Shown here: positions 4,452 to 26,357 of the stretch, one piece after another
Layout of the letters: every line of letters starts with the position of its first letter
Position numbering within the stretch: the first letter of the stretch is position 1
Source: Gammaproteobacteria bacterium
Lineage (GTDB): Bacteria > Pseudomonadota > Gammaproteobacteria > GCA-2400775
Length of the DNA: 42,231 nt
NCBI GenBank assembly: GCA_015492075.1
Contig: WGFU01000022.1
Span: 1 to 42,231 of the forward strand
Direction of reading: 5' to 3'
The notes under the pieces: model-generated
The model's input: only the letters and a program-made list of their open reading frames with translations
What the model was told of the DNA's origin: nothing
The model's database searches: none
Position numbers and translations under genes: made by a program

Positions 4452-4497
4452 TTGGTCGGGGTGAGAGGATTTGAACCTCCGGCCCCTGCCTCCCGAA
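4452..4497. repeat. attL: 46-bp repeat of tRNA-Pro 3' end
   Basis: These 46 bases are identical to 26280-26325. They contain the encoded CCA, the acceptor 3' strand, the T arm, the variable loop and the anticodon stem 3' strand. Identity ends at the 5' edge of the anticodon loop (TTCGGGA), a usual crossover place for tRNA-targeting tyrosine recombinases. This copy cannot make a tRNA because the 5' half is missing. Confidence 0.95.
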
Positions 4498-4624: not shown

Positions 4625-4773
4625 GAATTTCGTTGGAAAAAGTATTCGATGTGTCCGTTCATTTTTGGAAAAACTACAACAATACTTGAAAGGATTTAAC
4701 GTCGCTTCCATGTGAAACCGAGTGTCTCATTGTACCTTTGAAATGACCGCAAGGCTTGCAAAGGAGGCGCGAC

Positions 4774-5058
4774 GTGAGCACAGAGTATTCGATGGAACAA
4801 GGGAAGTATTACACTGATACCGATATCGCCGGGTTGCTGGGTATATCGCTTGGGCGATTGCGCAACAAGTTGAGCGCCGGAAATCCGCTGCCGCCGCGTA
4901 TACAGCCACCGGGTTGCCGCGGCCGACTGTGGCCTTGCAACGCCGTGCACGAATGGCTGGACCAGTTCATCGTAACGGTTGTCGATCCGGTAGCGCACGA
5001 TCCGCAACCCAGGCGTCGCGGGCGTCCGACCAAGCAGGAGGCTCGGGCGAGGCGGTGA
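4774..5058 (+). CDS. AlpA-like small DNA-binding protein
   Basis: The GTG at 4774 is chosen because AAGGAGG (4761-4767) precedes it by 6 nt; the frame is open further upstream but lacks such a site. The 94-residue protein has a winged-helix/HTH_17-like segment (YYTDTDIAGLLGISLGRLRNK), then a pattern ending in the AlpA/excisionase-type phrase AVHEWLDQFI. The tail is basic (RRRGRPTKQEARARR) and resembles an AT-hook. Small proteins of this kind at the end of an island often act as excisionase or as regulators of the integrase. It overlaps the next gene by 4 nt (GTGA), so the two are translationally coupled. The recombination role is inferred. Confidence 0.7.
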   Translation: MSTEYSMEQGKYYTDTDIAGLLGISLGRLRNKLSAGNPLPPRIQPPGCRGRLWPCNAVHEWLDQFIVTVVDPVAHDPQPRRRGRPTKQEARARR

Positions 5059-5891
5059 GTATTGCGGCAATGAACTGGGCCTGGCAGCAAAAGCTATCGC
5101 CCACCCCGAAACTGATCCTGATGGCACTGGCCGATGCCGCCAATGACTTCGGTGTTTGCTGGCCCAGCGTGTCGACGGTGGCAACCAAGTGTTGTGTTTC
5201 CATTCGTACTGTTCGGCGGGTCTTGCAACAGCTTGTTGACCGCAGACTGTTGCTCTCCGAGCAACGCTATCGCAAGGATGGTTCCTGTTCCTCAAACTGT
5301 TATCGGTTGCGGCTGGAAGGGGGTGACAGATTGTCACCGGCCCCTGATCCCTGTGACACCACCCCCCGTCAGTGGTGCGAGGATCCCCCTGTCACAGGTG
5401 ACATACCAGGAACCACCATAGGAACCCAAAAGGAACCACTACAACCACAGGAAGCGGCAACCGGGGCGGTCGATTCCAAATCCGCGAAAAGTGGTAGCGG
5501 GGAATTATCTGAACTGGAATACCCCAAGGCCATGTCAGCGGCAGAACAGGAAGAAGCCAGGAAAAAACTCGCCGGCATTCCTGCGGATCTGTCGCAGCAA
5601 CTCCTCGATGAACTGGCTGCAAGCATCGGGGCGAATGTCATCCAGTCAACGCCGTTGGCTTATCTGCGTGGCCTGATCACGCGAGCACGTTCCGGTACGT
5701 TCACGCCGGAGGGTGCCTTGCAGGTTGCAGAACATCGCAAGCGCAGGGCAGAGGTCGACACCGCAATAAGGTGTAATGAAGACAGGGGCAGTTACTATCC
5801 GCTTGCCGCAGTCGATACCGAGAATCCGTTGATCAAGAAGCTGCTCGGTATTCAGCGAAGGGTGCAAGAGAAGGATCGAGAGTCAGATTAA
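5055..5891 (+). CDS. Phage-replication-like helix-turn-helix protein
   Basis: The start may be the GTG at 5055, overlapping the previous stop, or the ATG at 5070 that yields MNWAWQQKLSPTPKLILMALADAAND. That opening is the usual one of phage and island winged-helix proteins related to replication initiators. The HTH core continues as WPSVSTVATKCCVSIRTVRRVLQQLVDRRLL (about 30-65). A polar linker follows, then a C-terminal segment (about 170-275) of helical character with no recognised motif. Such proteins bind origins or act as replisome organisers in phages; here this is inferred from the N-terminal domain only. No helicase or primase follows it, so any replication role would rely on host proteins. 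Confidence 0.65.
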   Translation: MSIAAMNWAWQQKLSPTPKLILMALADAANDFGVCWPSVSTVATKCCVSIRTVRRVLQQLVDRRLLLSEQRYRKDGSCSSNCYRLRLEGGDRLSPAPDPCDTTPRQWCEDPPVTGDIPGTTIGTQKEPLQPQEAATGAVDSKSAKSGSGELSELEYPKAMSAAEQEEARKKLAGIPADLSQQLLDELAASIGANVIQSTPLAYLRGLITRARSGTFTPEGALQVAEHRKRRAEVDTAIRCNEDRGSYYPLAAVDTENPLIKKLLGIQRRVQEKDRESD

Positions 5892-5946: not shown

Positions 5947-6236
5947 GGTGGTACCCAGGGTACCACCTGGCCCTGGGTAGGTTCGGCAACGGCGCACCGA
6001 GTTCGAATTTCGACAACTGCTACCCCGGGTAGCACCCCATCGACTTAAAATTGCGCTGTAATTAATTGAATGTCTGTCCGTCTGCCCGTATTCGGTGGAA
6101 TGAGCGAAACGCGATTTATACTCTAAACCGACTATTGACATTAAGATCATAATGTAACTGATTGAATATCAGTGACAGCGCACCATGACCAAAATTTGGT
6201 CATGGTGATCACACATACCGATTCACCCGGTGAATC
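5947..6236. repeat. Cluster of four perfect odd-centred palindromes
   Basis: Each palindrome has two perfect arms around a single central base: 5947-5967 (10-bp arms, GGTGGTACCC), 6019-6033 (7-bp arms, GCTACCC), 6181-6207 (13-bp arms, CACCATGACCAAA) and 6220-6236 (8-bp arms, GATTCACC). The first two share the core TACCC-N-GGGTA with centres 69 bp apart. The one-base centre speaks against RNA hairpins and fits binding sites for dimeric proteins or iteron-like origin elements. Confidence 0.7.
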
Positions 6237-6441
6237 CACTATTGGCTTTAAGGCAGTGATGTAACCGCCTGAAAGTCAGTGGTAGCCGCGGGTATTCGCT
6301 GTTTGAGTATCGAGTCCGGATTATGACAGGCTGATTTCAGTGGCATCACTTCGGGTTTGTACGAAGGCGTTCCGAGCCGTCGTATGCAGCTGATGTGACA
6401 GGCGAATACCTGGCGCATGGCTTGCCTGACCCGGAGGCGCA

Positions 6442-6476
6442 CTCGTCACTAGTAAGCGAAGCGGGGTAGTGACGAG
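6442..6476. repeat. Hairpin with 10-bp perfect stem
   Basis: CTCGTCACTA and TAGTGACGAG form a perfect 10-bp stem around a 15-nt loop. No T-run follows on either strand, so it is not an ordinary terminator. It may be a structured site of the element. Confidence 0.5.
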
Positions 6477-7030
6477 GGCGGCAAGTCCATTAACGGCGCG
6501 GGCTTGCGATTGGATTTTTCGATTACAGCCGGGTTTTGTGTTCTTATACTGCTGCCCTCGATCGCCAAGATCTAATTGATTCAACCGTGGCCACTGCGTG
6601 TACTAGTGGCAATTGAGCGTATTCGGATCCTGTGACGCGCAACGGCTGTCAGCCGTGGATCCATCTTCCAAACCGAACCGATCTAATCCGATTAGGGGAT
6701 CGGCTCATTCTCGCAGGTATCTGCCTGCCATTACTCGACGAGCAGAGACGTCCGCCCCAGGCGGTGCCGTTGATGTTCATTTTCCAACAACCGCGGACAT
6801 GTTCCGCATATTTGAAAGGAGGTGTTTTATGAAACCACCCTGAAAGAAGGCCCGTCAGGGTCAAGTTGGCCAGCGCTGGGCCATTACCCAAAAGGGAAAA
6901 ACAGTGTTGCCTGAGATCAGGCATATTCAGGTCGTATGGGAGTGGTGTCCCCCGGTCGTACCGCACACGCGGGCCTCGGTAGCTTTGGTTGCCAGGTGAC
7001 CACTAACACTTACCAACTGGAGATAACACC

Positions 7031-7407
7031 GTGAGAGACCTGAAATACCAACTCAAACTACTTTGCCATCGCAATCGGGATGGCAGTTATGCAATAAAAG
7101 CCAAGCGGATGCTGTTTGACCGGGGCGATTCACCAAAACACATCGAATCGCAACTACGTTCACCAGATGCGCGTCTATGAGGGCGACACCCTGCGCGCCG
7201 GACTCTCCCACATGCACGGGCTGCGCTATGCCTACGCCCAGAACCGCTACGAGGAACTGACCGGCTGGAATTGCCCGGCCGTCGGTGGGCCAGATCGCAA
7301 GTCCCTGACTCCGGAACAGCGCGAGGCAGACCGAGAAGCACGGCTCACCATCAGTCAGGAATTAGGGCATGAGAGGGAAACCGTGGTCAGCCTATCTTGG
7401 TCGGTGA
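7031..7407 (+). pseudogene. Decayed tyrosine integrase (internal deletion plus frameshift)
   Basis: The GTG start with GGAG 8 nt upstream gives RDLKYQLKLLCHRNRDGSYA, which matches the N-terminus of a family of about 300-residue island integrases (MxDLNYQLKxLCxRNRDGSYATQ). The frame stops at 7180. From about 7146 the next frame gives the C-terminal catalytic part: QMRVYEGDTLRAGLSHMHGL, RYAYAQNRYEELTGW and ISQELGHERE. It holds HGLR of the HxxR box and the LGHE box. The terminal YLGR-stop with the catalytic Tyr is present at 7393-7407 but one base out of frame. The middle (about 200 residues, including the first catalytic Arg) is deleted. The product cannot be active. It shows that a second recombinase once resided here, so the island is composite. 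Family identity is by memory of its conserved ends. Confidence 0.8.
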
Positions 7408-7517
7408 CATCGTACTCGTTGCTCACGTCGCAATATCCTGTTTGAGAGGTTTTAACCCGCATTTCTCACCCCAAAAATACCAAGCGTACTGATGATTTGT
7501 TGGTGTAAGGTTAGACA

Positions 7518-15562: not shown

Positions 15563-16513
15563 ATGAGCAAGACTTGGACGCCGCCACAAATACCGCCGAT
15601 CCCGATTGAAGTGAAGCAGGCGGCTAGTGAAGCAAATCTGGTTATTTTTGTAGGTGCCGGTGTGTCTAGGTTGATGGGATGCCCGTCATGGGATCAATTT
15701 GCAGACGCCGCGCTTCGGCAGTTGGCGGCACAGGACCTCATAACATTCGGGGATGTTCAGCAGTTGTCTCATTTGCCAGCAAAGCAGCGGTTGTCTATTT
15801 CGCTTCAGGTGTCTAACTCAGAATCAAGGCCATTGGATTATGCAACACTGATTCAGCCTAAGCGTCCTAGCGATTCCAGGGTGTACGAATATCTGAACGG
15901 CATCGGTTGTGCCTATGTTACTACAAACTACGACCGATTCCTGGATTCAATGCCTGGTAAGACTACGGTAGGCGAACCTGGTGCAGAAGGAGAAGCTGTT
16001 GGCAAAGACGAACCAGAGCTTATTTGTTGGCCACACCAACTCAAAGGCCTTCGGTTGCGGGAACCCGGCACAGTCATCCACTTGCATGGGAGCATTGACG
16101 AACCCGAGTCCGTGATTATGACCACACCGCAGTACCTGATTCACTATGACGACAAACGAGTGCAGGATTTTCTCGATGAGTTATTTGATCGGCATACCGT
16201 TTTGTTTCTTGGTTACGGGCTGGAAGAATGGGAGGTGCTTGAGCATGTTCTGCGCAAGGGGAGACGGCATCCTAGCAAGCAGCGAAAACGGTTTATGCTG
16301 TCCGGCTTTTATTCCCATCAGGAGAAGACTTTCTCCCACCTATATGATTACTACGAAAAGTCCTTTGGCGTCAGCTTGATTCACTTCAGTTTGGACTATA
16401 TGGAGTATGCCCAACTGGAAATGATCATGGAAGATTGGGCCGGTAATTTGGAAGTTGGTGATCCGCTACTGGCCGATGATCTGGAATATGTGCTCGAGGT
16501 AGCTGATGAGTAA
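15563..16513 (+). CDS. SIR2-domain protein, probable NADase effector
   Basis: The 316-residue protein is almost only a SIR2-like Rossmann domain. It has the NAD-binding start VIFVGAGVS (27-35), the catalytic-Asn phrase TTNYD (Asn122) and the catalytic-His phrase VIHLHGSID (His175). A later segment is VLFLGYGLEEWEV (213-225). These are the residues needed for NAD+ hydrolysis in defence SIR2 proteins such as ThsA and DSR2. There is no zinc ribbon of true deacetylases. Known defence SIR2 proteins usually carry a large C-terminal sensor in the same chain; here that part seems to be a separate gene, the next one, overlapping by 8 nt. The ATG follows the hsdS stop with no gap. NAD+ depletion on infection is the inferred role. 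Confidence 0.85.
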   Translation: MSKTWTPPQIPPIPIEVKQAASEANLVIFVGAGVSRLMGCPSWDQFADAALRQLAAQDLITFGDVQQLSHLPAKQRLSISLQVSNSESRPLDYATLIQPKRPSDSRVYEYLNGIGCAYVTTNYDRFLDSMPGKTTVGEPGAEGEAVGKDEPELICWPHQLKGLRLREPGTVIHLHGSIDEPESVIMTTPQYLIHYDDKRVQDFLDELFDRHTVLFLGYGLEEWEVLEHVLRKGRRHPSKQRKRFMLSGFYSHQEKTFSHLYDYYEKSFGVSLIHFSLDYMEYAQLEMIMEDWAGNLEVGDPLLADDLEYVLEVADE

Positions 16514-19313
16514 GCTTACTCCACGTCAGCAGGATGCTCTCGACAGGATTGAGCAAAAGCCTGCCTTACAGTCATTTTTCTTCAAGAAGTTGAAAGGCTT
16601 GAAGTGGTTTGATGAGTTGGAAAAGCGGGGGTTCTTCAATCCTGAGCTTAACCCTAGACCTGTGCAATCTGATCAGGAAGGGTACTTTAGTATACCGAGC
16701 TGGCCCATCTTGGATTATCTGGAACAAACGGCTCCCGAACTGCAACAGCCTGAGAATCTCGATTATGCAGAAAGGTTCCTGAAGGTCATGCGCGATGTTA
16801 CTAAAAGTGCCATGGAAGATGGTGTCAGCAACTACAGAACATGGTGGTACTTCGCGAAGATAATAAACTTCATCCCAATAGAAAAGATTACTCATGACGA
16901 CGTCGAACTATTAGAGTACTGGCTCAAAGATTCCTTTGATCGCATGCTGGTTGGAACTGAGCTAGGCAAACATCTCCTTCTGCGTTTGCTGGCCAGCGAT
17001 TCGGCTCATGCGCATGGCCTAGCGATTGGCTTGGTCAACGCCTTGACCGTACTAACCTGGAACCCAAAGCGGTGGGGAAAGTCTGAGGAGTTAGAGGCAA
17101 CTTTACCCGTCGAAGCGTATCATTCAAGAAAGATATTCAGCGTCCATGCGAGGGCTATAGGGGAGAAGTTAGAAGAGAGGGGTGTCAACATTTTTCGAGA
17201 TCGCTTGAGCGAGATATTTAGTAAAACGGATAAAGACAAATACTCGACTATCTGGCGTCCAGCTATCGAGGACCACGAACAGAATAAGGGTCGGGATGAC
17301 GCGGAAGACATTTTGATCAGCGCATTGCGCGATTCGCTTCTAGGTTATGTCGACAGACGTGCAGCTGCTGCAGCGGACTATGTTGGCGAGTTGCTTGCTA
17401 ATGAGACGGTACTTTTCCAGCGGGTAGCGATACACGTAGCTGACGTATACAACAGGCAGCTAGGTGATTTGGTTAAACAACTCGTCGAGCCGCAATACTT
17501 TGAATATCACTACCAGCATGAAATGTATCACCTGCTTCAGAATTGTTTTTCAGGGTTTGATGAAAAGGAGAAGCAAAAGGTGCTCGGAATTATTGGAAGT
17601 ATTGCAGAGCAGAGTAAAGATCCTGATCAGCCCAAGGATATACAGGAAAAACAACAGGCCTACACCTGGTTGAGATGGTTGTCTGCGATTAGAGGGAAGG
17701 GTTATCAACAGGCGGATGACTTATACACCGACAATCTGGCAATTACCAAAGCAGAACCCGAACATCCGGATTTCTCCAGTTATATGGAGGTTGGTTGGGT
17801 GGGTGGGTTTTCGCCGTATAGCGTAGAGGAATTGCTGAGCCGCGATTTCGAAGATTTGTTCAATATATTAAAGTCTTTCAAGGAAGAAGGCGGATGGAAA
17901 ACACCGACACGTCGAGGGCTGGCACAAACACTGAAAGAAGCCCTAAAGGCGAGGCCTGAGTTATTCAAGGGCCATCTAACGGAATTGATAGGCCTTGATT
18001 TTGACTATACATACCACTTGATCGAAGGCTATAAGGAGCTCTGGAAAGAAAAGCAATACGACAATTGGGCGGAGCTATTTGAATTTTGTTGGGCCTTGCT
18101 GCAATCGGAAGGTTTCTGGTTGAAAGACTCTGCTGAGCAGAGAGGGGGCATGGCTGCTTCGTCCCGTTGGATCGTGGGGGCAATTAGCGAGCTCATCAGG
18201 ACGGGAACTGCTGATGATAAGACAGCTTTTGATCCAGTCATGTTGCCAATGGCAGGTCGTATTATCGTTCATATCCTAGAGCATCAGGAAGGAGAGTCAT
18301 TCACAGAGGAACGAGATGCAGTATCAATTGCTATCAACAGCCCTCGTGGCAAGTGCGTTGAGGCGCTCATAAATTATGCCCTCCGGATTTGCAGGCTGAC
18401 TGATAAGAGCGAAAAGGGACATGATGAATTGTGGGTAAGGGAGTTGCAGCCCATATTCGACAAGCAGATAGACCTCGTTCAGAAGGGGAATTATGAGTTC
18501 GTAACATTGTTCACGAATTATCTGCCTAATCTTCTATATCTAAGCCGATCATGGACAATGAAACAGTTGCCGACAATATTTGAAAAGGAAAACCGCCTTA
18601 GATGGCTATGTGCAGTGCAGGGTTATATCTATGTTAACCAGATTTACGCGGAGGTCTACAAGTTTCTTCGTGAGAATAGTCATTTGCAGGATGCCCTGGA
18701 TGCTAAAGAACTTGAATCCAGAGGTAAGGATAAGATTATTCAAAATATTGTTATTGCCTATTATCAGGGTGATGAACAACTTGATGATGCGAATGGAGCA
18801 CTAAGTTGGTTAGTTGACCGGTGGAAGCTGGAAGAGCTTCAACAGTTGATATGGTTCATTTGGACTATTCGCGATAGTAAAGGAGATGCTGAAAAGAAAC
18901 TGATCCCGCTCTGGGCTGAAATTAGTAGGCGAGCGGATTCGAAACGCGAGGCTGATAAGCGCGTGTTGTCACGGTTGTGCATGTGGAGCGTGTTTGTTGA
19001 TGAGTTGAGTGAGCAGACAATGGATTTACTTTTGCGGTCTGCACCATATGCGGATCTGGAGCATGATGCTTATATATTGATAGAAGAATTAAAGCGCCTT
19101 GTCGAACAGTATCCGGACCAGGTCGCAGACATATTTATCCGCATGCTCGTCGGCTTTGCGCCCACATACCAGCAGGAAGATATCGAACATATAATTTCGA
19201 AACTTTACGATAGTGGTGGTGAGAATCGGCAGAAGGCTAATACAATCTGTGACAGGTACGTCGAATATGGAATCGGGTTTCCTGCCGAGATACGGGCAAA
19301 GTATTCGCACTAA
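16506..19313 (+). CDS. Large helical protein, probable partner or sensor of SIR2
   Basis: The 935-residue protein has no recognised enzyme motif: no Walker A, no nuclease signature and no membrane segment. It is rich in charged and aromatic residues and looks helical throughout, like HEAT-type repeats. One phrase, INSPRGKCVEALINYALRI from residue 610, is like the NSxRGxAxEAL phrases in the helical sensor regions of defence STAND and SIR2 proteins; this resemblance is from memory. Its ATG lies within the last codons of the SIR2 gene (8-nt overlap), so the two are made in a fixed ratio and probably form a complex. It could sense a phage component and switch on SIR2. It might also relate to the DUF4020-type regions fused to SIR2; this is not certain. 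Confidence 0.6.
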   Translation: MSKLTPRQQDALDRIEQKPALQSFFFKKLKGLKWFDELEKRGFFNPELNPRPVQSDQEGYFSIPSWPILDYLEQTAPELQQPENLDYAERFLKVMRDVTKSAMEDGVSNYRTWWYFAKIINFIPIEKITHDDVELLEYWLKDSFDRMLVGTELGKHLLLRLLASDSAHAHGLAIGLVNALTVLTWNPKRWGKSEELEATLPVEAYHSRKIFSVHARAIGEKLEERGVNIFRDRLSEIFSKTDKDKYSTIWRPAIEDHEQNKGRDDAEDILISALRDSLLGYVDRRAAAAADYVGELLANETVLFQRVAIHVADVYNRQLGDLVKQLVEPQYFEYHYQHEMYHLLQNCFSGFDEKEKQKVLGIIGSIAEQSKDPDQPKDIQEKQQAYTWLRWLSAIRGKGYQQADDLYTDNLAITKAEPEHPDFSSYMEVGWVGGFSPYSVEELLSRDFEDLFNILKSFKEEGGWKTPTRRGLAQTLKEALKARPELFKGHLTELIGLDFDYTYHLIEGYKELWKEKQYDNWAELFEFCWALLQSEGFWLKDSAEQRGGMAASSRWIVGAISELIRTGTADDKTAFDPVMLPMAGRIIVHILEHQEGESFTEERDAVSIAINSPRGKCVEALINYALRICRLTDKSEKGHDELWVRELQPIFDKQIDLVQKGNYEFVTLFTNYLPNLLYLSRSWTMKQLPTIFEKENRLRWLCAVQGYIYVNQIYAEVYKFLRENSHLQDALDAKELESRGKDKIIQNIVIAYYQGDEQLDDANGALSWLVDRWKLEELQQLIWFIWTIRDSKGDAEKKLIPLWAEISRRADSKREADKRVLSRLCMWSVFVDELSEQTMDLLLRSAPYADLEHDAYILIEELKRLVEQYPDQVADIFIRMLVGFAPTYQQEDIEHIISKLYDSGGENRQKANTICDRYVEYGIGFPAEIRAKYSH

Positions 19314-25164: not shown

Positions 25165-26166
25165 CTATCCCAGCTTCCTCGCCAAATCCTCCGCCTTTAG
25201 ATGCGTATATCTGCGCAGCATGCGCAGGTCTTTGTGACCGGTGATGCTGGCCACTTCCATAATATTGAGGCCTTTTTCGAACAGGCGGGTGGTGGCCTCG
25301 TGGCGCAGGTCGTGGAAGCGCAGATCCTTAATGTCAGTCCGGCGTACTGCGCGAGTGTAGGCGCGTTTGACGGCTTCGGTGGTGAGGCCGGGGAAGACTT
25401 GGCCATTGATACTGCGAGGAAGTGCGCGCAGAACTTTGATGGCAGTTGTTGAAAGTGGCACGGTGCGTGACTCGCCATTCTTGGTGTCCGGCAGGTGGGC
25501 GATGCAACGGTTGAGGTCTACATTTTCCCAGCGCAGGCTGATCAGTTCGCCCTGGCGCATGGCGGTCTCCAGGGCCAGCTGTACGATAGGAAGCAGGTGA
25601 GGATTGCGTGCCTCGCGGCAGGCCTTTAGCAGACGGGTTTCCTCGCTTTCCTCTCCATCTTCGCCTGGTTGCAGGCGGCGTTCGCGGGCTCTGGAGTGCG
25701 GGGGTAGTTTGATGTCCCGCACTGGGTTGTGGACGTGGATCCCCCATTCCTTGCGGGCCACCTCGAACAGGTGTGACAGGATTGTCAGGTCACGCTTTGC
25801 AGTGCCCGGGCAAACCTTGCGTAGGCGTTCATCCCGGTAGCGGGCGATGTCAACGCCACGAATACCGGCGACGAATCGCAGGGCGAGGGGTTGTTTCATG
25901 AAGGCTTGGATGCGGGCGGATTCGGGAGCAGCACCTTTTTTCAACGGCGTGACTTCTGCCAGGTAGCGTTCCAGCAGTTCCTTGAGGGTGGTGGATTCCG
26001 CCTCTGCTCTGGAGACGAACAGCCCCTGGTCCATTTCATACTCGATCGCCCGCGCCCAGATTTCCGCGGCTGCGCGTGTGTCAAAGGTCTTGGTCTGAAG
26101 AGGATGGCCCTTTTTCCGGACCTGGGCCTGCCATTGATAAAGACCGCGTTTTCTGAAAGTTGCCAT
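25165..26166 (-). CDS. int: Tyrosine recombinase (integrase) of the island
   Basis: The ATG at 26166 is preferred, with GGAG 8 nt upstream; the frame is open further upstream. The 333-residue enzyme has an N-terminal arm-binding part (MATFRKRGLYQWQAQVRKKG), a SAM-like core-binding domain (about 55-150) and a catalytic domain. Catalytic residues are visible in order: Arg204 (AMRQGEL), Lys229 (TKNGES), His285-x-x-Arg288 (HDLRHEATT), His311 (GHKDLR) and nucleophile Tyr320 (RRYTHL). All are intact, so activity is expected. The gene starts 114 bp from attR and reads into the island, a usual layout for tRNA-site elements. It would recombine attL and attR. Sites TCACACT (26169-26175) overlap its ribosome site, suggesting self-control. 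Confidence 0.95.
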   Translation of the reverse strand: MATFRKRGLYQWQAQVRKKGHPLQTKTFDTRAAAEIWARAIEYEMDQGLFVSRAEAESTTLKELLERYLAEVTPLKKGAAPESARIQAFMKQPLALRFVAGIRGVDIARYRDERLRKVCPGTAKRDLTILSHLFEVARKEWGIHVHNPVRDIKLPPHSRARERRLQPGEDGEESEETRLLKACREARNPHLLPIVQLALETAMRQGELISLRWENVDLNRCIAHLPDTKNGESRTVPLSTTAIKVLRALPRSINGQVFPGLTTEAVKRAYTRAVRRTDIKDLRFHDLRHEATTRLFEKGLNIMEVASITGHKDLRMLRRYTHLKAEDLARKLG

Positions 26167-26168
26167 TA

Positions 26169-26213
26169 TCACACTCCGCTCGTTCGCGAACGAGTGTGAC
26201 AACGCTGTGACAA
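26169..26213. promoter_or_regulatory. Right-end recombinase-type sites before int
   Basis: TCACACT (26169-26175) and the tandem AGTGTGACAA-N3-TGTGACAA (26193-26213) repeat the left-end pattern. The palindrome CGTTCGCGAACG lies between them (26181-26192). They fill the leader of int, so binding could both assemble the recombination complex and repress int. Confidence 0.6.
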
Positions 26214-26279: not shown

Positions 26280-26325
26280 TTGGTCGGGGTGAGAGGATTT
26301 GAACCTCCGGCCCCTGCCTCCCGAA
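26280..26325. repeat. attR: 46-bp repeat within intact tRNA-Pro
   Basis: This copy is identical to attL (4452-4497) and is part of the complete tRNA-Pro(CGG) gene, so insertion kept the tRNA functional. Confidence 0.95.
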
Positions 26326-26357
26326 GGCAGTGCTCTACCAGGCTGAGCTACACCCCG
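26281..26357 (-). tRNA. tRNA-Pro (anticodon CGG)
   Basis: The minus strand gives a 77-nt cloverleaf with acceptor CGGGGTG/CACCCCG, D arm GCTCAGCCTGGTAGAGC, anticodon stem CTGCC/GGCAG around loop TTCGGGA (anticodon CGG) and T arm GGAGGTTCAAATCCTC. The 3' ACCA is encoded. It decodes CCG proline codons. The gene lies between ispB and the island and is the insertion target. Confidence 0.97.

Follow-up and report, generated by a model that had tools for sequence, protein, structure and literature searches.

The closest described counterparts of the locus reported here are putative replication origins of large mobile elements. In PFGI-1, the region just upstream of PFL_4669 was described as a putative oriV holding four perfect 23-bp palindromes and four 46-bp repeats with an imperfect inverted repeat in them, and the same paper mentions a suggestion that pKLC102 replicates by strand displacement (PMC2647930). 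A putative oriV was assigned on like features to the replication module of a Haemophilus island, with pKLC102, SPI-7 and PAPI named as consistent (PMC2258188). Because these papers describe such putative origins, the feature is of an already known type. Partition sites provide another comparison: SGI1 carries copies of the IncC parS and is stabilised by IncC ParAB (PMC10954446), and the parS consensus of V. cholerae chromosome II is tabulated as NTTTACANTGTAAAN (PMC7022226).

We analysed a stretch of 42,231 bp, called the window throughout, from a gammaproteobacterial MAG. It contains an island of 21.9 kb (4452-26325) lying between perfect 46-bp repeats at a tRNA-Pro gene, whose features are collected in Table 1. 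The island is integrated and non-conjugative and has its own integrase and rep gene, as expected of an SGI1-like hijacking island; no transfer genes were found among the island proteins scanned. Its middle part carries a type I restriction-modification set together with a Dsr1-like system of two genes. The latter is a split Dsr1 (15563-19313) that adjoins the restriction-modification set; of its two overlapping genes, one matches the first 300 residues and the other the remaining 900. A gathering search of the window with Rfam reported only tRNA, and ARAGORN only the tRNA-Pro.

Table 1. Features of the island and of the palindrome region, with positions in the window.
Feature	Position	Strand	Remarks
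Island left end, 46-bp perfect copy of the tRNA-Pro 3' part	4452-4497		
Small HTH_17-like (AlpA-like) gene 5' of rep	4756-5058	+	Below Pfam cut-off
rep gene, HTH_36 replication-type protein, 273 aa	5070-5891	+	HTH_36 8.4e-14
GGTGACAGATTGTCACC inside rep gene	5322-5338		7-3-7 in the window; perfect 8-1-8 at the corresponding position of L008 and L009
Palindrome 1, GGTGGTACCC-A-GGGTACCACC	5947-5967		10-1-10, perfect
Flank motif GAGTTCGAATTTCGAC	5999-6014	+	Just 5' of palindrome 2; recurs beside palindromes in L008 (twice) and L046
Palindrome 2, TGCTACCC-C-GGGTAGCA	6018-6034		8-1-8, perfect; covaries with homologous units
21-bp box TGTAAcTgaTTGAAtatCaGT, three copies	6057-6077, 6153-6173, 6260-6280	+	Sequence repeat
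Palindrome 3, CACCATGACCAAA-A-TTTGGTCATGGTG	6181-6207		13-1-13, perfect, 27 bp
Palindrome 4, GATTCACC-C-GGTGAATC	6220-6236		8-1-8, perfect
Conserved non-coding block, inverted repeat CGTCACTA...TAGTGACG	6430-7031	+	Common to ICEs; no intact gene behind it in the window
PF12834/PF12835 'integrase' remnant	7032-7445	+	N-terminal and C-terminal pieces (relative's residues 200-284), middle missing
Island tyrosine integrase, full-length, beside tRNA-Pro	25165-26202	-	Pfam Phage_integrase 4.2e-32
Island right end, 46-bp repeat within tRNA-Pro (26281-26357, -)	26280-26325		

The C-terminal part of Rep resembles the replication proteins of STY4528-family ICEs (STY4528_fam, 5.8e-6, residues 132-212), a match that is confined to this part and scores 26.6 bits against a curated cut-off of 130. 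The predicted model of the protein has an N-terminal HTH region, a disordered linker (83-146) and a helical C-terminal part, with a mean pLDDT of 66.5; a fold search with the model gave weak matches only, many of them to small winged-helix regulators and none at E of 0.001 or below. Rep had no match among plasmids and no relative among viral contigs. Its gene and the HTH_17-like gene are kept as a pair in L008, L009 and L040. The block behind the palindromes, of about 600 bp, shows 73-80% identity to the window query among full-length matches from islands and ICEs. In SGI1, the gene for MpsA, an atypical relaxase of the tyrosine-recombinase family, adjoins a GC-rich oriT with inverted repeats (PMC6414798), and the block at 6430-7031 may be a transfer origin.

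The first-pass annotation of this DNA had singled out four perfect palindromes, each with a one-base centre, in non-coding DNA after a replication-like HTH gene. All four are present at 5947-6236, and the setting is as it described: the HTH_36 gene ends at 5891, and between its stop codon and the conserved block at about 6430 we found no convincing gene. It had given arm lengths of 10, 7, 13 and 8; three of these stand, while the second arm is really 8. The shared TACCC-N-GGGTA that it pointed out belongs to sites 1 and 2. The window has seven palindromes with arms of at least 8 and a centre of 0 or 1 base, and four of the seven fall within these 290 bp. Chance was modelled by 5000 first-order Markov simulations of the palindrome region. 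The simulated region held on average 0.02 one-centre palindromes with arms of at least 7; three or more appeared in 0 of 5000 runs and an arm of 13 in none, which agrees with the earlier judgement that the 27-bp palindrome is improbable by chance.

The four sites are not copies of one another. Their start-to-start spacing is uneven (71, 163 and 39 bp), and their inner bases include GTACCC, CTACCC and TTCACC. Palindrome 1 has the outer GGTG...CACC of many ICE sites, a frame taken from the relatives. Palindrome 3 is of a type, ..CAAA-W-TTTG.., other than those of the remaining window sites, and the inner TTCACC-N-GGTGAA of palindrome 4 is also found in the second palindrome of L008. By eye, boxes like TGTAAcTgaTTGAAtatCaGT also precede the L008 palindromes.

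We measured how regularly such palindromes follow rep genes in relatives. Genes of the STY4528 family are present in 19 of the 369 genomes of the class. The survey covered 30 rep loci: 20 from our coded genomes (with G336 and G250 contributing two each), five from named plasmid records and five from islands (the window, L008, L009, L040 and L122). Left out were two islands with a cut rep gene (L123 and L124), the sixth plasmid record (L202, from Burkholderia, its gene not annotated as STY4528-family), G059, whose Rep is the same as that of G019, and a third G250 copy. Within a span from -20 to +400 of the rep stop codon, 23 of the 30 loci have an odd-centred perfect palindrome with arms of at least 8, compared with 0.29 expected. 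The other seven, including ICEHin1056 and island L122, have no odd palindrome of arm 8 in this span; in L122, the rep gene and the conserved block are present without a palindrome between them. The first-pass annotation had guessed at operators or an origin of the element, which comes close to what the relatives show: palindromes stand behind rep in both ICEs and islands, and PFGI-1 has its putative oriV there (PMC2647930).

With G129 and G226 lying outside it, 21 of the 23 loci share the frame GGTG....CA-S-TG....CACC, whose outer part is the better kept. Half-sites vary by lineage (AGTGGTTACA, GTGATTCCA, ATTATTACA, GTGATGGCA, GGTGTTGGCA, TGTTGCCA, GTGGCCACA, GCTGGCCACA, CTGTTGGGA, CTATCCCC and others), and between elements the inner bases differ on both arms jointly. 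Inside one element the same palindrome is usually repeated, 10 times in G288, 7 in G281, 4 in G126 and 2 in G245; the half-site TGTTGCCA has 10 copies at steps of about 48 bp. Behind the rep gene of a G250 ICE (L072:8150-8234) there are three identical copies of ATTATTACA-G-TGTAATAAT at 33-bp steps, where two sister ICE copies have one. Sites are also found away from rep: they extend over 4.2 kb in G281, one lies within parB of G025, and a Stutzerimonas plasmid has one near the start of its Arc-parB genes. The second type, ..CAAA-W-TTTG.., is located inside the rep genes of G025, G126 and G129 and just behind rep in L009.

The P. aeruginosa plasmid pKLC102 offers the longest series, and its original description reportedly listed sixteen 57-bp repeats. 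We found 16 units at 57-bp steps, of which 14 have perfect palindromes. The outer GTG...CAC and the third-from-centre C are invariant in 16 of 16 units, while four arm positions vary, both sides in step. The covariation between arms was 0.454, against 0.136 +- 0.041 for shuffled units (0 of 500 as high) and at most 0.092 for slid controls. A second set came from the flank motif GAGTTCGAATTTCGAC, which stands beside four palindromes in three genomes (the window, L008 twice, and L046); a fifth place, in G302, stops at the contig end. Four of the ten mirrored positions vary among these palindromes with pairing kept, giving 0.633 against 0.215 shuffled (0 of 500) and at most 0.119 for slid controls. 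Neither set of units was chosen for its palindrome. Compensatory arm change and conserved spacing, which the first-pass annotation had proposed to look for, are thus both seen: the arms vary jointly, not independently, in the pKLC102 and flank-motif units, and the spacing, regular in G288 as well, is a strict 57 bp in pKLC102. We also considered whether GTTCGAATTTCGAC might be a T-arm-like piece of a tRNA and rejected the idea: in the 10 genomes searched it occurs five times, each time at one of the palindrome places, and the tRNA-Pro is the sole tRNA that ARAGORN reports in the window. Two viral contigs with this motif have no adjoining palindrome.

The order of gene pair, palindromes and conserved block recurs in the MAG island L008, with a rep gene 70% identical to that of the window, and in L009 and G209 (L040). 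The palindromes themselves differ among these sister islands. Several types occur in L008, GGTGATTACA-G-TGTAATCACC among them, and the palindrome of G209 is a 16-1-16 around GGTGGTTACA-S-TGTAACCACC. At L080:10423-10455, behind the rep gene of a sister island, there is a 33-bp perfect palindrome (16-1-16), followed in the direction of the island by a terminator-like 14-4-14 inverted repeat with a T run.

Taken together, we consider 5947-6236 to be probably a replication/partition control region of a PFGI-1/pKLC102-type replicon, with each palindrome a candidate site for a dimeric replicon protein. Such a protein would read both arms of a palindrome alike, and a dyad-binding protein is the likely mechanism. 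As to which protein this might be, we lean towards a ParB-type partition protein, reading parS-like sites, over Rep. ParB is favoured because the TTACA-N-TGTAA core of ICE sites is that of the V. cholerae chromosome-II parS, because sites lie far from rep and in or near parB, as is expected of parS, and because SGI1 provides a precedent. A TIGR03764 (ICE-type) ParB was not found in the window genome (a MAG, 80% complete), nor an ICE-family ParB in six other genomes with such islands. Since no ICE-type ParB of its own was found, the island, once excised and circular, would borrow that of a helper ICE, as SGI1 does with the ParB of IncC. No helper element carrying the site types of the window was found among 203 loci. 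Palindrome 3, being of the second type, may belong to the origin, with Rep and not ParB as its reader.

A check on the reader is whether protein distance follows site distance. Site distance was computed from one hand-picked 8-base half-site per element, the commonest type being used for pKLC102. In 11 ICEs, ParB gave a rho of 0.85 and Rep one of 0.63. In a cleaner set of 13 elements, with near-duplicates dropped (G336a and G264) and four named plasmids added, rho was 0.30 (p 0.018) for ParB and 0.20 (p 0.066) for Rep; in 12 elements with AcaB, it was 0.39 for ParB, 0.32 for AcaB and 0.26 for Rep. Given ParB, the partial correlation for Rep was about zero (-0.13 in the 11 ICEs, -0.06 in the cleaner set). 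When ParB was reduced to its recognition-helix stretch, rho in the first set was 0.41, no better than with the whole protein. Excluded from these Mantel sets were G208, G288, G211 and G157, whose stretches contain no ParB, G129 for its mixed sites, G226 and G206 for want of a fitting site, and G336b and G250b as duplicates with a partial ParB. Because rho dropped from 0.85 to 0.30, we state the ParB link as a lean only and drop the claim of a strong coevolution of ParB and site. A comparison of the ICE ParB with PDB sequences gave no match. Moreover, several site types in one array, as in the window, L008 and pKLC102, are not predicted by a single sequence-specific reader.

The main competitor, to which we give a minority share of the probability, is that the palindromes are Rep iterons: the island's HTH_36 Rep would bind all of them as a dimer at an oriV proper, and no helper ParB would be involved. 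The rep gene precedes the sites in 23 of 23 loci with a site, islands included, no ICE-type ParB was found in the genomes of islands with sites, the N-terminal domain of Rep is of the HTH_36 kind, and the authors of PFGI-1 read the region as an oriV (PMC2647930). However, Rep follows site distance no better than ParB does, with a partial correlation near zero, and sites distant from rep and near or in parB would be odd for iterons. Island L040 and ICE G019 have the same 19-bp site, GTGGTTACA-S-TGTAACCAC, despite likely Rep recognition helices that are unlike (ISSRTVRRV and VSSTSTISRA). In island L039, the site is that of ICE G250 and stands behind an HTH_17-like gene, yet no rep gene was found nearby. 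That the palindromes form transcription terminators or hairpins in the RNA downstream of rep is very improbable: their location just behind the stop codon would fit, but as a rule no T run follows, the arrays reach 16 sites, the stems are weak in some elements, and some sites lie inside genes. It is scarcely more probable that structure and not sequence matters, with hairpins or cruciforms serving, for instance, as single-strand initiation sites in strand-displacement replication, where any self-complementary arm would do. Site types do vary within one array while remaining perfect, and replication of pKLC102 by strand displacement has been proposed (PMC2647930). Against this, part of the pKLC102 arm is fixed (the invariant outer bases and C in 16 of 16 units), so the arm sequence matters; one-base centres make poor hairpin loops, and several arms are A+T-rich (ATTATTACA).

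A pattern of a different kind concerns recombination, in which the palindromes would be attachment sites for cargo cassettes, perhaps through the neighbouring PF12835 tyrosine recombinase. The clustering of cargo and alignment ends at palindromes is real. Where L068 and L069 have a single palindrome, ICE L070 has 2.9 kb of cargo at exactly that site, flanked on each side by a palindrome, and the overlap of the two BLAST pieces is exactly the 20-bp palindrome. This cargo (L070:2804-5775, compared with L068:4426-4446) lies behind the ICE rep gene and contains four ORFs that by eye resemble a methyladenine glycosylase, YciI, a TetR regulator and a flavin oxidoreductase, none recombinase-like. Among ICE copies, 16 of 265 alignment ends fall within 12 bp of a palindrome, where 1.06 would be expected, the ends not being independent, and G250 has a toxin-antitoxin-like gene pair between two palindromes. 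But the L070 pattern could also have arisen if the other ICEs lost the DNA between two direct copies; short conserved motifs attract alignment ends, and arrays with a constant step of 48 or 57 bp are unlike attachment sites. A PF12835 gene was found in 32 of 369 genomes at E 1e-20, and nine palindrome genomes are not among them (G126, G129, G245, G288, G281, G088, G211, G157 and G153). Because rep loci in genomes without this gene also carry palindromes, we reject an integron-like recombination site as the main function and consider recombination an improbable reading of the sites.

The inner bases might form a compatibility code of a whole replicon family, one mirrored word per ICE lineage. 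Small islands would then collect several words, by which the partition or replication proteins of different helper ICEs could maintain them and by which they could also disturb those helpers; we offer this tentatively and think it rather unlikely to hold as a whole. The sites do evolve as perfectly mirrored, element-specific code words, and the palindrome array of an obscure island is linked to the putative origin of a large family of ICEs, pathogenicity islands among them. Were the sites parS-like, the SGI1-style exploitation of a helper's partition system would extend to another island family, and helper-island partnerships could be predicted from sequence.

As in the putative oriV of PFGI-1 and pKLC102, which lies between a STY4528-family rep gene and PFL_4669, the palindromes of the window follow directly on a STY4528/HTH_36-type rep gene and are of two types. 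The host, in contrast, is a small island whose rep gene is short and divergent and in which no ParB, AcaB or transfer genes were found, and its sites are unlike one another and unevenly spaced, with no regular direct repeats. Because PFL_4669/AcaB and ParB were not found flanking the region, the next conserved feature being the block at 6430, we class it as working like the PFGI-1/pKLC102 oriV and not as a full member. What is unusual in the window is that several site types stand side by side on a small island, in a genome where no ICE-type ParB was found. As in SGI1, palindromic sites stand beside the rep region of an island without its own ParAB; the SGI1 sites, however, belong to a single type with an even centre and have been shown to bind IncC ParB, whereas those of the window are of mixed types. 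The V. cholerae chromosome-II parS is odd-centred like the sites described here and its core TTACA-N-TGTAA is found in ICE sites (as TTACA-S-TGTAA), while the window palindromes have the other inner bases GTACCC, CTACCC and TTCACC.
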